From NCBI GenBank assembly GCA_020850535.1, contig JADZEM010000118.1, positions 1 to 64,000 of the forward strand: a DNA stretch of 64,000 nucleotides. The letters are read 5' to 3'. The notes beneath the pieces are model-generated. The model saw only the letters and a program-made list of their open reading frames with translations. It was not told the origin of the DNA and ran no database searches. This stretch comes from Chloroflexota bacterium. Its GTDB lineage: Bacteria; Chloroflexota; UBA6077; JACCZL01. Made by a program: the position numbers and the translations under genes. This document shows, piece by piece, positions 1-60,206 of the stretch (positions within the stretch are counted from its first letter, which is position 1; each line of letters opens with the position of its first letter).

Positions 1-147
1 GTCGCTGCGCGACGCTCCAGTCGCACCAGTGCCTGCCGTTCCCGACGGCCGTCGCGCAGCGACGGCGTGACTGTAGGCGGGGACTTCAGTCCCCGACCGC
101 CCGTTCCATGATGCTTCGGGTACACCAATGAACATGCAATCGCCCTG
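1..147. repeat. MITE-like dispersed repeat, copy A (cut by window start)
   Basis: The right part of a palindromic repeat that recurs at 161-374, 47738-47954 and 57821-58035, with a shortened form at 7755-7858. Visible parts are a GTCGCTGCGCGAC / GTCGCGCAGCGAC inverted pair, a GGGGACTTCAGTCCCC hairpin and the terminal AACATGCAATCGCCCTG. Its left end lies outside the window. No coding content is evident. Confidence 0.85.
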
Positions 148-160
148 AGTCACGAACCGG

Positions 161-374
161 AGCGATTGCATGTCGATGTCGTCGTGCCGCCGCGTCGGGG
201 CTTGAAAGCCCCGCCTACACGCATGCAGTCGCTGCGCGACGCTCCAGTCGCACCAGTGCCTGCCGTTCCCGGCGGCCGTCGCGCAGCGACTGAATGACTG
301 TAGGCGGGGACTTCAGTCCCCGACCGCCCGTCCCATGATGCTTCGGGTACACCAATGAACATGCAATCGCCCTG
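161..374. repeat. MITE-like dispersed repeat, copy B
   Basis: A nearly full copy. The left terminus is degraded (AGCGATTGCATG instead of CAGGGCGATTGCATG) and the right terminus is intact (AACATGCAATCGCCCTG). Internally it has the two small hairpins GGGGCTTGAAAGCCCC and GGGGACTTCAGTCCCC around a central inverted GTCGCTGCGCGAC pair. It lies 13 bp after copy A. No flanking duplication is clear, so the pair may be a nested or rearranged insertion. Confidence 0.85.
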
Positions 375-7731: not shown

Positions 7732-7754
7732 CGAATCGCTCGCGGCGCCCAGGC

Positions 7755-7858
7755 CACGTGCATGATGAGCGCATCGTGCAGCGTCGTCGGAGCTTGAAAG
7801 CCCCGCCTACCCGACACCGTCGCGCTTCGGGAACGCCAGTGACCGTGCAATCGCCCTG
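7755..7858. repeat. MITE-like dispersed repeat, shortened copy C
   Basis: About 104 bp with GTCGTCGGAGCTTGAAAGCCCCGCCTAC and the end GTGCAATCGCCCTG, matching the family. It lacks the central palindrome and the second arm. Probably an internally deleted, old copy between the GT operon and the aminotransferase gene. Confidence 0.65.
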
Positions 7859-46597: not shown

Positions 46598-47533
46598 CTA
46601 CTCAGCCGCGTTGGTCGCCGCGGCCGGGGCTTCGGCCGGAGTCTCGGCCGTCGCGACAGCGGCCGGAGCCGGTGCCTCAGCCGCTGGCGTGGCCTCGGCG
46701 GCCGGCTCGGCAGCGGGGCTGACCTCAGCCGACTCGCCCGGCGCGAAATCATCCGGCGTGAAGACCAGGCCGCCCACGGCCTTCGCGTCCAGATCGTCGC
46801 CCTCGGCCGAATCGGCCTCAGCATCGCGCGCTCCGGAGGCGGCCTCGCGCTGCGCCACGCCTTCGAGCACCGCATCCGCGATCTTGCCCGTCAGCAGGCG
46901 AATCGCGCGGATCGCGTCGTCGTTGGCCGGGATCGGGTAGTCGATCTGGTCCGGGTTGCAGTTCGTGTCGACCATCGCGACGATCTCGATCTCGCTGCGG
47001 CGGGCTTCGGCGATGGCGATCTGCTCGCGGTGCGGATCGACGACGAAGATCGCGCCCGGGGTCCGGTACTGCTTCTTCATGCCGCCGAGCAGCCGCTCAA
47101 GCCGCTCCATCTCGTCGATGAGCTTGATCGCTTCCTTCTTGGGCAGCTTGTCGAGCTCGCCTTCCTCGCTCATCTGGTTGAGCTGTTCGAGGCGCTTGAT
47201 GCGGTTGAGGATGGTCTGGAAGTTCGTCAGCATGCCGCCCATCCAGCGGCGATTGACGAACGGCATGTTGCAGCGCCGCGCCTCTTCCTCGATCGTCTCC
47301 TGGGCCTGCTTCTTGGTGCCGACGAACATCAGCGTGCCGCCGCCAGCCACGAACTCGCGCACCCAGGTCATGGCATCTTCGAGACGCCGGACCGTCTGCT
47401 GGAGGTCGATGATATGGATGCCGTTGCGCTCCGTGAAAATGAACGGGCGCATCTTCGGATCCCAGCGGCGGGTCTGATGTCCGAAATGCACGCCGGCTTC
47501 CAGCAGGGTCTTCATCTGAACGGGACTGGCCAC
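46598..47533 (-). CDS. rpsB: 30S ribosomal protein S2 with acidic Ala-rich tail
   Basis: 311 residues from a GTG with an AGGAG site. [47 protein letters not shown] and [15 protein letters not shown] are all standard S2. After about residue 225 comes an extra tail of some 85 residues rich in Ala, Glu and Pro ([14 protein letters not shown], then [14 protein letters not shown]). Such tails are seen in some high-GC phyla; the role is unknown. It heads the tsf-pyrH-frr-uppS-cdsA-dxr series. Confidence 0.97.
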
Positions 47534-47727: not shown

Positions 47728-47964
47728 ACCGGGCGCCCAGGGCGATTGCATGTTGATGTCGTCGTGCCGCCGCGTCGGGGCTTGAAAGCCCCGCCTACGA
47801 TCCTGCAGTCGCTGCGCGACGCCCCGGTCGCACCAGTGCCTGGCATTCCCGGCGGCCGTCGCGCAGCGACGGCGTGACTGTAGGCGGGGACTTCAGTCCC
47901 CGACCGCCCGTTCCATGATGCTTCGGGTACACCAGCGAACAGGCAATGGCCCTGACCGGGCGCC
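47728..47964. repeat. MITE-like repeat copy D with 10-bp target duplication
   Basis: The element at 47738-47954 (217 bp) starts CAGGGCGATTGCATGTT and ends GAACAGGCAATGGCCCTG. It is flanked on both sides by ACCGGGCGCC (47728-47737 and 47955-47964), a perfect 10-bp direct repeat. Internal hairpins are as in the other copies. Confidence 0.9.
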
Positions 47965-48170: not shown

Positions 48171-48545
48171 ATGTCGAAGCTGCTTGTTCGTCTGGCCGTC
48201 AGCGCGGGCGCGGTGTTGCTGGTCCAATGGCTGCTGGAGCAGTTCGCGCCGCCAGAGTGGCAAGTTGTGCGGGTGTCTGGCCTGGCCGTCGCGCTCCTGT
48301 TCGCGGTGGTGCTGGGTCTGTTGAACGCGATCCTCCGTCCGATCCTCCTCCTGGTCACCTGTCCGCTGAACTTCGTGACCCTTGGCCTCTTCACCTTCGT
48401 GGTGAACGCGCTCGTCTTCTGGCTGGCCGCCCGGCTCTTGTCTGACTACGGCATGAGCGTGCAAGGTTTCACCGGCGCGCTGATCGGCTCGCTGGCCGTC
48501 ACCATCTGCGTCGCCGCTGCCGACAACTATCTTGAGGAGCGATGA
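48171..48545 (+). CDS. YvlD/phage-holin-4-like membrane protein
   Basis: 124 residues from the ATG at 48171, with four membrane helices. The motif VVLGLLNAILRPILLLVTCPLNFVTLG is the signature of the YvlD (phage holin 4 superfamily) proteins, followed by NALVFWLAARL. Members are small envelope proteins of unknown function, sometimes linked to envelope stress. It lies 40 bp before the yvcK-like gene in the same direction. Confidence 0.85.
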   Translation: MSKLLVRLAVSAGAVLLVQWLLEQFAPPEWQVVRVSGLAVALLFAVVLGLLNAILRPILLLVTCPLNFVTLGLFTFVVNALVFWLAARLLSDYGMSVQGFTGALIGSLAVTICVAAADNYLEER

Positions 48546-48585
48546 GCCTGACTACACGGTCCCGCATCACGGTGCAACTGGCGCG

Positions 48586-49905
48586 ATGATGCGTCTGCTG
48601 AAGCTCCTGATACCTGGCTACCGCATCAAGCGCTGGCTCGGCCTGACGTTCGTCGGGCTGGTGGTGCTGGCCCTCGGCTTCGCGTACCTCTTTGTCGAGC
48701 TGTACCGGAACGTGCCGCTCCCGTCCGAGGCAGCGTACCTGACGCTGCAGTTCTTGCCACGCTGGCTGCGCGGCCTGCTGTTTGTGCTGGCGGGCGTGGC
48801 GGTGACGGCGCTGGCCGTCGTGAAGCTGAACCGAAACCTCGCGGCGCCGCTGGCACGCCAGCAGACGGGCGTGGGCATCGTCGATACGCTGGTTGGCTAT
48901 CGGCAGCGCGAGCGCGGACCGAAGATCGTCACCATCGGCGGCGGCACCGGCCTCTCGACCATGCTGCGCGGCCTCAAGAACTACTCGGCCAACATCACGG
49001 CCATCGTGACGGTGGCGGACGATGGCGGCAGCTCCGGTCGCCTGCGTCGCGACCTCGGCGTGCTGCCGCCCGGCGACTTCCGCAACTGTATCGTGGCGTT
49101 GGCCGACGCCGAGCCGTTGATGTCGCGGCTGTTCCAGTACCGCTTCGCCCAGGGGAGCGGCCTGGAAGGGCACAGCTTCGGCAACCTGTTCATCGTGGCG
49201 ATGAGCGGCATCACCGGCAACTTCGAGGAGGCTATCCGTGAGGCCAGCCGGGTGCTGGCGGTCCGTGGGCAGATTATCCCGTCCACGCTGGAGAACGTCG
49301 TGCTCGGCGCGGAGCTGGCGGACGATGCCCACGTGCTTGGCGAGTCCAACATCTCGGCGGCCAACTTGCCGATCAAGCGGGTCTACCTCCAGCCGGAGCG
49401 GCCGGCCGCCTTCCCGGACGCCGTCCGCGCCATTCTGGACGCCGATATCGTGATCGTCGGGCCGGGCAGCCTCTACACCAGCATCCTGCCGAACCTGCTG
49501 GTGGACGGCATCGCCAAGGCCGTCGCCTCGACAGAAGCGCTGCGGGTGTACGTCTGTAACGTCGCGACGCAGCCGGGCGAGACGGACGAGTTCCGGGCCA
49601 GCGATCATGTCCGGGCGCTGCTCAAGCATCTTCGAGGGACGCCGATAGACGTGGTGCTGGCGAACAGCAACCACGCCGGCGCGATCAAGCCCGAGTGGAA
49701 CGTGCAGCACGTCGTGGCGGACATCGACGCGATCGAGGAGATGGGCATCGACGTGGCGTTGCACGACGTGGTCGATCCGCACAACGCGCTGCGCCACAGC
49801 CCGGAGCGATTGGCGGCGGCGGTCGAGCAGGTGTACGAGCGGCGTCGGATGAACGGCAGCAGCAACGGGGCGGTGCGCTCGGCGGCAGCGGCGTCGAGCA
49901 TCTGA
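48586..49905 (+). CDS. yvcK: YvcK/CofD-like protein with N-terminal membrane anchor
   Basis: About 439 residues from the ATG at 48586; an adjacent ATG at 48589 is equivalent. Two hydrophobic segments (about 18-38 and 60-82) precede the Rossmann-like domain. That domain has KIVTIGGGTGLSTMLRGLK near 112, TVADDGGSSGRLR and LPPGDFRNCIVALA, then GPGSLYTSILPNLLV. YvcK proteins bind UDP-sugars and affect cell shape and gluconeogenic growth. The classical B. subtilis form is soluble, so the two anchors place this one at the membrane. Confidence 0.9.
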   Translation: MMRLLKLLIPGYRIKRWLGLTFVGLVVLALGFAYLFVELYRNVPLPSEAAYLTLQFLPRWLRGLLFVLAGVAVTALAVVKLNRNLAAPLARQQTGVGIVDTLVGYRQRERGPKIVTIGGGTGLSTMLRGLKNYSANITAIVTVADDGGSSGRLRRDLGVLPPGDFRNCIVALADAEPLMSRLFQYRFAQGSGLEGHSFGNLFIVAMSGITGNFEEAIREASRVLAVRGQIIPSTLENVVLGAELADDAHVLGESNISAANLPIKRVYLQPERPAAFPDAVRAILDADIVIVGPGSLYTSILPNLLVDGIAKAVASTEALRVYVCNVATQPGETDEFRASDHVRALLKHLRGTPIDVVLANSNHAGAIKPEWNVQHVVADIDAIEEMGIDVALHDVVDPHNALRHSPERLAAAVEQVYERRRMNGSSNGAVRSAAAASSI

Positions 49906-57154: not shown

Positions 57155-57598
57155 GTGCAGAGACTTGAGCGGTTGAACCCTGGATACGGCATCGCCGTTC
57201 TCCGAATCATGGTCGGCGTCGTGCTGTTCCTGGCTGGCTACTCGAAGCTGATGGGTCCGGGTGTGGCCGGCATCGCCGGTTTCTTCTCCAACGTCGGCAT
57301 CCCGATGGCCGGCGTGATGGCTCCGCTGGTCATCGGCTTCGAGACGGTCGGCGGGCTGCTGCTGATCGCCGGCGCGTTCACGCGGATCGTCGGGCCGCTG
57401 ATGGTGGTGCAGTTCCTGGTGGCCGGGCTGGCGGTCAGCTTGCCATCGCAGATGGGGTGGGGCGCGGCCCGGCTCGACTTCATCATGGCGGCGGCTGGCG
57501 CGCTGTTCTTCCTGACCGGCGCCGGCCTGCCATCGGTTGACCGGTGGCTCGCGAGCCGCGAGAGCGGCGGACAGCCGCGCGTGCGCTCGTTCGCCTGA
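57155..57598 (+). CDS. DoxX-family membrane protein
   Basis: 147 residues from a GTG with GGAG upstream. It has four membrane helices with LRIMVGVVLFLAGYSKLMGP and IGFETVGGLLLIAGAFTRI, typical of DoxX/DoxD-like proteins. The role is uncertain; relatives take part in quinone-linked redox or oxidative-stress systems. The 254-bp gap before it holds a TATAGT (56937-56942) and a TTGAGTGTTCAA inverted repeat, but no gene. Confidence 0.85.
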   Translation: MQRLERLNPGYGIAVLRIMVGVVLFLAGYSKLMGPGVAGIAGFFSNVGIPMAGVMAPLVIGFETVGGLLLIAGAFTRIVGPLMVVQFLVAGLAVSLPSQMGWGAARLDFIMAAAGALFFLTGAGLPSVDRWLASRESGGQPRVRSFA

Positions 57599-57810: not shown

Positions 57811-58045
57811 ACCGCTTTCTCAGGGCGATTACATGTTCATTGGTACCCGAAGCATCATGGAACGGGCGGTCGGGGACTGAAGTCCCCGCCTACACGCATG
57901 CAGTCGCTGCGCGACGGACACCGGAAACGGCGTCGTCTGGTGAGACCGGGGCGTCGCGCAGCGACTGCAGGATGGTAGGCGGGGCTTTCAAGCCCCGACG
58001 CGGCGGCACGACGACATCAACATGCAATCGCCCTGACCGCTTTCT
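57811..58045. repeat. MITE-like repeat copy E with 10-bp target duplication
   Basis: The element at 57821-58035 (215 bp) is inverted relative to copy D: CAGGGCGATTACATGTT on the left, AACATGCAATCGCCCTG on the right. It is flanked by ACCGCTTTCT at 57811-57820 and 58036-58045, a perfect 10-bp duplication. It lies within the 646-bp gene-free stretch 57599-58244. Confidence 0.92.
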
Positions 58046-58082: not shown

Positions 58083-58244
58083 CGGGCAGCTTACTTTTCT
58101 TCTCCGCGTCTCCCGAACGGTTGCGCGTTCCTGGCGATGTCGCTGGAGCGCAGTCGGGCGGGGTAGAACATGGCGTCGCGTGACGGTGACGAGGCGCACT
58201 CTGATCTGGGCACGATGCCCACATGTCTGTTGGGAGACTCTACG

Positions 58245-60206
58245 ATGAGCGAAGACGCTCCGAAGCGAGGAATCGGCCGTCGTGCATTCTTGCGGACGAC
58301 GTCGCTGTTCGCAGCGGCGATCGGGCTGACGGCTGCCTGTGCTCCGGCGCCAGCCGCCCCGGCCAAGCCAGCGGAGCCGGCCAAGCCCGCCGAGGCCGCG
58401 AAGCCGGCTGCCCCTGCCGCTACCACGGCTCCGGCTGCCGCCGCGCCGGCCAAGCCGGCTGAGGCCGCCAAGCCCGCCGAAGCGGCGAAGCCCGCCGAAG
58501 CTGCCAAGCCGGCGGCTGCTGCGCCGGCTGGTGCTGCGAAGCCGGGCGACGTGCCGCGCAACCGAACCCTGATCGCCATCACCGGCAGCTCGGTGCAGCA
58601 GGGCAAGTTTACTGACGCCGAGCTGTGGAACCCGTACGCGGTCGGTTCCAACCACCAGTCCGGCCCGAACCTGCTCTACGAGCCGCTGGCCTTCTACAGC
58701 GCGTTCGCGGATAAGGAGCACCTCTGGCTGGCCGAGAGCTACCAGTACAGCCCGGACAGCAAGACGCTCACCATCAAGACCCGTTCCGGGATCACCTGGA
58801 GCGACGGCAAGCCGTTCAGCGCCGAGGACGTGGCCTTCACGTTCAACTCGTTGAAGGACATCGGCGGCAAGGTCCGCTGGGGCGTGGACGTCCAGCAGGT
58901 GCTGCAGGAGGCCAAGGCGACGGACGCGAACACCGTCGTCCTGAACTTCAAGGTGCCAGCCCCGCGCTTCTTCGAGTTCGTCACCTACAAGTACGACATC
59001 GGCGTCTACATCGTCCCCAAGCACATCTACGATGGTCAGGACTGGACGCAGTTCCGCGCGTTCGACCTCGCCAAGGAGTGGCCGGTCACCACGGGTCCGT
59101 GGAAGGTCAGCTACGCTGCGCCCGAGCAGAAGATCTTTGACCGGCGGGCTGACTGGTGGGCCGTCAAGGCCGGCCTCGTCAAGCAGATGCCGCAGATGCA
59201 GCGGCTGGTGATGCTGCCGACCCCTGGCGAGCAGCAGCTGGCGCAGGCCCTCATCACGAACCAGTGCGACTTCTCCACCAGCCTGCAGCCGTCCACCTTC
59301 CCCACGGTGCTGCAGCAGAACCCGAAGATCATCACCCACTCTGGCCGCGACAAGCCGTACGGCTATACGGACTGGTGGCCGGCCTCGCTCTACCTGAACA
59401 ACACCGCCAAGCCGTTCGACAATCCGGACATCCGCTGGGCCATCTCCTACTACATGGATCGGGACCAGATCATCGACGTGGGCTGGGGCGGCGCGAGCAC
59501 GCCGTCGCAGCTGCCGATGCCGACGTACCCGCCGCTGAAGCCGTACTTCGAGGCCGTCAAGGACCTGCTGGCGAAGTACAACACCATCGAGTTCAACGCC
59601 AAGAAGGGCGACGAGCTTCTGATGAAGAACGGCTTCAAGAAGGAGGGCGGCAAGTGGCTGATGGCGGACGGCCAGCCCTTCAAGCTCGACTTCATGGGTC
59701 CTGGCACGGGCACCTTCGCGGCCATCGGCCCGGTGGTGCAGGAGCTGCTCAAGCGGCAGGGCGTCGAGGCGACCTACAGCCAGCCGCCTGATGCCAGCAG
59801 CCGGTTCGAGAAGGGCGAGTACGTCGGCTTCCTGTACGGTCACGGCGGCAGCGTGCGCGATCCGTACTACACCCTGCGGCTCTACCAGGGCGCGACGCAG
59901 GCGGTGCCGGGCGCGCACCTCGTCAACTTCCCGAAGTGGAAGAACGAGAAGTACGATGCCATCGTCGACCAGGTGTTCGTCACGCCGATGAACGACACGG
60001 CCAAGCTGCAGAGCCTGTTCCACCAGGCGATGGAGATCTGGCTGCCGGAGCTGCCGGACGTTCAGCTCACCGAGTTCCACCACCGGATCCCGATGAACGA
60101 GACGTACTGGAAGAACTGGCCGACGGCGCAGAACCCGTACATCAACGGGGCGTTCTGGCACCTCACCCACCAGCTCATCCTCAACAACCTCGAACCCGTG
60201 CAGTAG
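58245..60206 (+). CDS. ABC peptide/substrate-binding lipoprotein (SBP_bac_5)
   Basis: 653 residues from the ATG at 58245, with GGGAG upstream. The signal GRRAFLRTTSLFAAAIGLTAAC ends in a lipobox Cys near residue 32 and has a twin-arginine-like RR. A long stalk of AKPAE repeats runs to about residue 100. The ligand domain has PLAFYSAFADKEHLWLAESY, SDGKPFSAEDVAFTFNSL and IVPKHIYDGQDW. It pairs with the two permeases downstream and is very similar to the binding protein at 62423. Ligand unknown. Confidence 0.88.
   Translation: MSEDAPKRGIGRRAFLRTTSLFAAAIGLTAACAPAPAAPAKPAEPAKPAEAAKPAAPAATTAPAAAAPAKPAEAAKPAEAAKPAEAAKPAAAAPAGAAKPGDVPRNRTLIAITGSSVQQGKFTDAELWNPYAVGSNHQSGPNLLYEPLAFYSAFADKEHLWLAESYQYSPDSKTLTIKTRSGITWSDGKPFSAEDVAFTFNSLKDIGGKVRWGVDVQQVLQEAKATDANTVVLNFKVPAPRFFEFVTYKYDIGVYIVPKHIYDGQDWTQFRAFDLAKEWPVTTGPWKVSYAAPEQKIFDRRADWWAVKAGLVKQMPQMQRLVMLPTPGEQQLAQALITNQCDFSTSLQPSTFPTVLQQNPKIITHSGRDKPYGYTDWWPASLYLNNTAKPFDNPDIRWAISYYMDRDQIIDVGWGGASTPSQLPMPTYPPLKPYFEAVKDLLAKYNTIEFNAKKGDELLMKNGFKKEGGKWLMADGQPFKLDFMGPGTGTFAAIGPVVQELLKRQGVEATYSQPPDASSRFEKGEYVGFLYGHGGSVRDPYYTLRLYQGATQAVPGAHLVNFPKWKNEKYDAIVDQVFVTPMNDTAKLQSLFHQAMEIWLPELPDVQLTEFHHRIPMNETYWKNWPTAQNPYINGAFWHLTHQLILNNLEPVQ

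Follow-up and report, generated by a model that had tools for sequence, protein, structure and literature searches.

According to a paper on Frankia (PMC11946415), ISs of the ISAs1 family carry IRs of 14–22 bp that begin with CAGGG, together with a direct repeat of 10 bp. The bacterial MITEs Chunjie (from Geobacter uraniireducens), Correia, and MITEPlu5/ERIC are short, gene-less elements with inverted ends and target duplications, which are present in tens to hundreds of copies. Two copies of an element can also move jointly from their outer ends, as in composite transposons and IS tandem dimers. Tandem MITEs are known to exist in corals, where they have been explained by replication slippage (PMC2872659). 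The words "tandem" and "dimer" are absent from the review of prokaryotic MITEs, in which the composite form is described, and no case of a bacterial tandem or dimeric MITE was found in literature searches of an open-access library.

The element described here is a new MITE, and the transposon family to which it belongs is a known one. It shares the CAGGG-starting IRs and the 10-bp duplications of the ISAs1-family ISs (those with a PF13808 + PF01609 transposase), but it has no transposase and only the ends are in common. It folds strongly, as MITEPlu5 does, whereas MITEPlu5 resembles IS630-type elements and has TA duplications. The CMITE tandem arrays of corals have been put down to slippage at one locus (PMC2872659), whereas in the present case the same spacer is found at many loci, many of which have fresh outer duplications; and unlike composite transposons and IS tandem dimers, the pairs carry only a 10-bp spacer as their cargo, and both copies are non-coding. 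This is a bacterial MITE family with recurring head-to-tail pairs across the genome, tagged by a fixed 10-bp spacer. That the element is an ISAs1 MITE and that it forms recurrent dimer families is, taken as a whole, considered likely with good confidence.

The genome amounts to 7.65 Mb and is assembled in 227 contigs; the window, i.e., the whole stretch of DNA analyzed, consists of 64,000 nucleotides of it (C118, positions 1–64000). The following copies of the element and associated features were identified in it:

1..147, minus strand: copy A, second element (E2) of copy B's dimer, cut by the contig start
148..157, unstranded: dimer spacer AGTCACGAAC, 10 bp, of the "beta" spacer family, found again at other loci
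158..374, minus strand: copy B, 217 bp, first element (E1) of the tandem dimer, inner terminus at 158 altered (CGGAGCGATTG), outer terminus at 374 intact
7750..7858, unstranded: copy C, decayed short relative, 109 bp, flanking 10-mers agreeing at 7/10 positions
47728..47737, unstranded: left target duplication ACCGGGCGCC of copy D
47738..47954, minus strand: copy D, a complete 217-bp monomer of the MITE
47955..47964, unstranded: right target duplication ACCGGGCGCC of copy D
57811..57820, unstranded: left target duplication ACCGCTTTCT of copy E
57821..58035, plus strand: copy E, a complete 215-bp monomer of the MITE, inverted-repeat ends CAGGGCGATTACATGTT / CAGGGCGATTGCATGTT, the whole element forming one hairpin
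58036..58045, unstranded: right target duplication ACCGCTTTCT of copy E

The features typical of a MITE are all present: a length of 217 bp, 17-bp inverted ends, one long hairpin, and a size too short for a transposase gene. The hairpin folds with z-scores of -9.7 (DNA) and -10.7 (RNA), and none of 200 shuffled sequences folded equally well; no family was matched in an Rfam search of the window. A sequence-only reading of this DNA had described an inverted-repeat element of about 217 bp with exact 10-bp flanking repeats around copies D and E, and both the CAGGGCGATTGCATGTT ends of these copies and their duplications (ACCGGGCGCC and ACCGCTTTCT, respectively) were confirmed. As regards the five copies it had counted, the positions of D and E stand, whereas copy B begins at 158 instead of 161, its terminus having been altered to CGGAGCGATTG, and copy C extends over 7750–7858 and is decayed. 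Copies A and B, which had been listed as two copies, are indeed present, but they form a single head-to-tail pair around the spacer AGTCACGAAC, that is, one tandem dimer with a 10-bp spacer. The dimers and the dimer families had gone unnoticed. Copy E is intergenic, with a DoxX gene (57155–57598) on one side and an SBP_bac_5 gene (58170–60206) on the other, and copy D is located in the divergent gap between the gene of ribosomal protein S2 (46598–47533, minus strand) and a CofD gene (48532–49905, plus strand). In this divergent promoter gap, copy D is on the upstream side of the ribosomal protein S2 gene, at a distance of about 200 bp, and could have an effect on expression there.

The 15-base terminus CAGGGCGATTGCATG gave 307 + 292 = 599 matches in the genome with at most one mismatch, as against 0 + 1 in the case of the reversed control, which bears out the large genome-wide family expected from the window. 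Intact elements having two ends and many dimers three, this number corresponds to an estimated copy number of roughly 200–300 in this Chloroflexota genome. In 15 further genomes belonging to this order, the same terminus is found only 0–3 times each; the sister genome has two exact matches, and these are the opposite ends of a single IS. A search with the whole element, which covered 60 relatives and, across the phylum, 400 genomes, detected no copy outside its own genome at the sensitivity used, apart from a weak 31-bp match; as only two candidates per genome were scored in part of this search, the terminus search in the relatives gives the firmer negative. A plasmid collection searched with the element gave no match either.

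Of the copies that are solitary, of full length, and internal to a contig, 35 were examined: the 10-bp duplication is exact in 19 of them and has one mismatch in four. The outcome by which the sequence-only reading stood to fall, namely that most other copies lack any 10-bp duplication, was thus not observed. In two further solitary copies (in C108 and C14), the flanks agree after a small register shift, and a clean 10-bp duplication is absent from 10/35 even when this shift is allowed. These copy statistics are based on a portion of the genome (about 1.85 of 7.65 Mb) in which element loci are overrepresented. A strong sequence preference is not apparent in the duplications, and their GC content is that of the genome. 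An exact reverse-complement mate was found for 102 of the 343 outer ends (0.9 would be expected with shuffled letters), and in the case of 30 outer ends the mate is located at another locus, mostly at another contig's end. The assembly therefore broke where an element lies, and both flanks of a given insertion can be matched up again. Exact 10-bp duplications match across the ends of C70/C125, C72/C176, C167/C146, and C226/C146, for example, and the dimer inside C146 joins two flanks that have mates elsewhere, which suggests that the join is chimeric or that a rearrangement has really taken place. The elements explain assembly breakpoints, and the matching 10-bp duplications connect contig ends and could be used for scaffolding.

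On the strength of its anatomy, the element is firmly assigned to the ISAs1 family, as a non-autonomous MITE. As had been predicted, the 10-bp duplication narrows the choice of transposase, in this case to ISAs1. The search for a full IS with the same termini was successful in a sister genus, where a 1256-bp ISAs1 element starts with CAGGGCGATTGCATGTT (17/17 matches with the left end of the MITE) and ends with CAGGGCGATTGCATG, but not in the element's own genome, which carries only two ISAs1-type transposase genes (PF13808, PF01609), both of which are degraded. These two genes are preceded by CAGGGGGATTGCATAAC and CAGGGCGATTGTATAGT, with a terminus agreement of 13/15. The genome yielded no intact copy of ISAs1, so that the driver acting today is missing, lost, or unassembled. 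In the sister-genus IS, the reading frame of the gene changes near the end, and there is no recognizable duplication; its transposase is 100% identical to one in a Chloroflexi MAG (JACCZL010000153.1), to which the sister genome corresponds, and by this kinship the window belongs in Chloroflexota. A total number of 68 related ISs from named genomes were scanned for duplications of 7–12 bp, and only the elements with exact duplications were counted, because the scan could pick the wrong ends in the others: all 21 of these have a 10-bp duplication, and nearly all their ends are of the CAGGG type. The element is very probably mobilized by an ISAs1-type transposase acting in trans, which would recognize the CAGGGCGATTGCATGTT ends and insert the element by making a 10-bp staggered cut. 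Duplications of about 10 bp are also made by some other IS families, and the driver might accordingly belong to another transposase family with duplications of this length, such as another group of the IS4 superfamily; given the match between the CAGGGCGATTGCAT ends and the ISAs1 elements in the same genome, in the sister genus, and in the wider family, this is highly improbable. An initial guess that the repeat was of the Xanthomonas type was dropped, as the sister genome is that of a Chloroflexota MAG and the next-nearest relative of the transposase comes from a Thermomicrobiales MAG. A distinct, near-palindromic 107-bp repeat (L060, 162–268; 48-nt arms, 83% complementary) was observed about 1.1 kb from a degraded ISAs1 copy.

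Throughout the genome, 67 junctions were identified, consisting of two facing termini with any 10 bases between them. A separate search for the commonest spacer, ATGCTGCTAC, which defines the alpha family, gave 61 junctions that have it in this or a slightly changed form; the further recurrent spacers are AGTCACGAAC, AGGGCAGCGC, ACGAATCAGT, AGCGAGGGGG, and CACGTGACCG. The orientation labels of the rare epsilon and zeta dimers, which are uncertain, were left out of account. The fully read entries for the alpha, beta, and gamma dimers show exact outer duplications in 9/29 cases and duplications with one mismatch in four more, and a clean 10-bp outer duplication is missing in 15 of the 22 fully read alpha entries. 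Fully read dimers often show an exact outer duplication that differs from the spacer; examples are TCTGGGATCC, ACCTGCAGCT, and AGCGGGTGAG around dimers with ATGCTGCTAC, GGTGGGAAGT, CGTCACCCCT, and GGCGGAAGGC around dimers with AGTCACGAAC, and CGTAACGAAT and CGGCCAGGAA around dimers with AGGGCAGCGY. The same internal junction is therefore combined with fresh outer duplications, as expected of a dimer serving as the transposing unit. Local tandem duplication is unable to account for one spacer recurring at many loci whose outer duplications differ. The sharing of spacers shows that either entire pairs or just the junctions have been spread through the genome. Some dimers pair elements of unequal lengths (217 with 203/204). 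In two dimers (C19:12033–12483 and C80:2031–2464), a 17-bp spacer, TAGTGGCAGGGGCGAGT or its reverse complement, was observed, with exact outer duplications.

Many contigs end in element repeats, and the flanks of the C146 dimer mentioned above have their mates at the starts of other contigs, which is what might be expected if the dimers were artefacts of the short-read assembly of a repeat-rich genome. In every major spacer family, however, there are dimers that are flanked left and right by an exact outer duplication within a single contig, and misjoined monomers cannot yield a recurrent 10-bp spacer, so that there is very little chance of this being the explanation, even though some of the joins may be chimeric, the assembly being fragmented at these repeats.

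The inner terminus of E1 is altered differently in the three best-sampled spacer families, where it reads CAGTG, CGGAG, and CAGGA. The terminal CAGGG is intact at only 4/58, 3/12, and 2/7 of the E1 inner ends in three spacer families, and at all 77 of the E2 inner ends; it is intact at 45 of 50 monomer ends, and the outer ends of the dimers are mostly intact as well. This pattern fits the idea that a dimer turns into a mobile unit once its first element has lost the ability to leave by itself. Part of the alpha inner end (AATCG for GATTG) is also present in some monomers, and not every inner-end change need therefore be damaging.

These data can be accounted for as follows. A dimer (element – 10 bp – element) would arise, most simply, by duplication of, or re-insertion into, a copy's own 10-bp target duplication, which would remain behind as the spacer. 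A few dimers would then have spread; what the data show is that an identical spacer recurs at many loci together with an identical altered inner terminus, and that many of these dimers have an outer duplication of their own. Each dimer would move as one unit, starting from the outer ends, which are intact, and aided by the loss of the E1 inner end, and homologous recombination among copies has since reshuffled the bodies of the elements, as the contrast between spacer and body diversity indicates. The inner-end pattern makes us lean slightly towards movement as units, to which we give about an even chance. The whole proposal, namely that this is a new mobile unit in which head-to-tail dimers formed over their own target duplication are locked by the loss of the E1 inner end and spread as composites of about 444 bp, with recombining bodies and a neutral 10-bp spacer acting as a lineage barcode, is put forward tentatively, as being somewhat less probable than that.

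The diversity of the sequences bears on this point. Spread from one founder by transposition alone would be expected to leave the bodies of the alpha dimers roughly as uniform as the spacer. Pairwise diversity amounts to 2.6% in the alpha spacer (bootstrap 0.7–5.0%), as compared with a median of 10–12% in the element bodies (10-bp windows). At 16 body sites, the same two alleles segregate in the alpha elements and the monomers, the left half of E1 is not associated with its right half (r = 0.02), and the bodies are near linkage equilibrium. No two alpha dimers are closely alike over their bodies, where even nearest neighbors are separated by at least 19 differences in about 412 sites, and this does not look like recent transposition as units. 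In view of the uniform spacer and the diverse bodies, either the bodies have been reshuffled by recombination or the junction has been copied into monomers.

According to the latter possibility, it is the junctions and not the dimers that have spread: a locus would first receive a monomer with its own duplication, and the junction would later be copied into it from a dimer elsewhere, either through gene conversion or through a 227-bp circle (element + spacer) that integrates. The alpha-specific variants are in fact limited to the last ~25 bp of E1 and the spacer, the bodies being as diverse as those of monomers; the outer segments (E1 left and E2 right) show the highest distance correlation, although it is not significant (r = 0.26, p = 0.07, Mantel test); and trimers with repeated or mixed spacers exist, one of which has GGGCCATCTG on either side. 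Junction spread does not, however, account by itself for the three differently altered E1 inner ends beside intact E2 ends, and dozens of conversion events from a few donors would be needed; it is a possible explanation, considered somewhat less likely than movement as units. Trimers with repeated or mixed spacers were observed at C71:57680–58295, C59:1–540, C69:3668–4318, C217:10250–10930, and C112:46360–47060, and an exact outer duplication encloses the C217 trimer.

It might also be supposed that the dimer is the ancestral mobile form and that the monomers are collapsed dimers, from which recombination has removed one element and the spacer while the outer duplication stayed in place. Deletion between direct repeats 10 bp apart is to be expected, and monomers and dimer elements have alleles in common. 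The existence of several spacers and of unequal element lengths (217 with 203/204) points, however, to repeated origins, and the larger diversity of the bodies would stay unexplained, which makes the collapse of dimers an unlikely source of the monomers. The spacer can be used as an internal clock and barcode, since its low diversity separates the spread of the junctions from the reshuffling of the bodies, and the contrast between spacer and body makes unit transposition versus gene conversion a testable matter.

Short relatives of 89 and 108 bp, which have the element's ends and exact 10-bp duplications and interiors that are mostly different, were also observed at C127:12708–12796, C104:5853–5960, C104:16825–16932, and C15:27180–27287.
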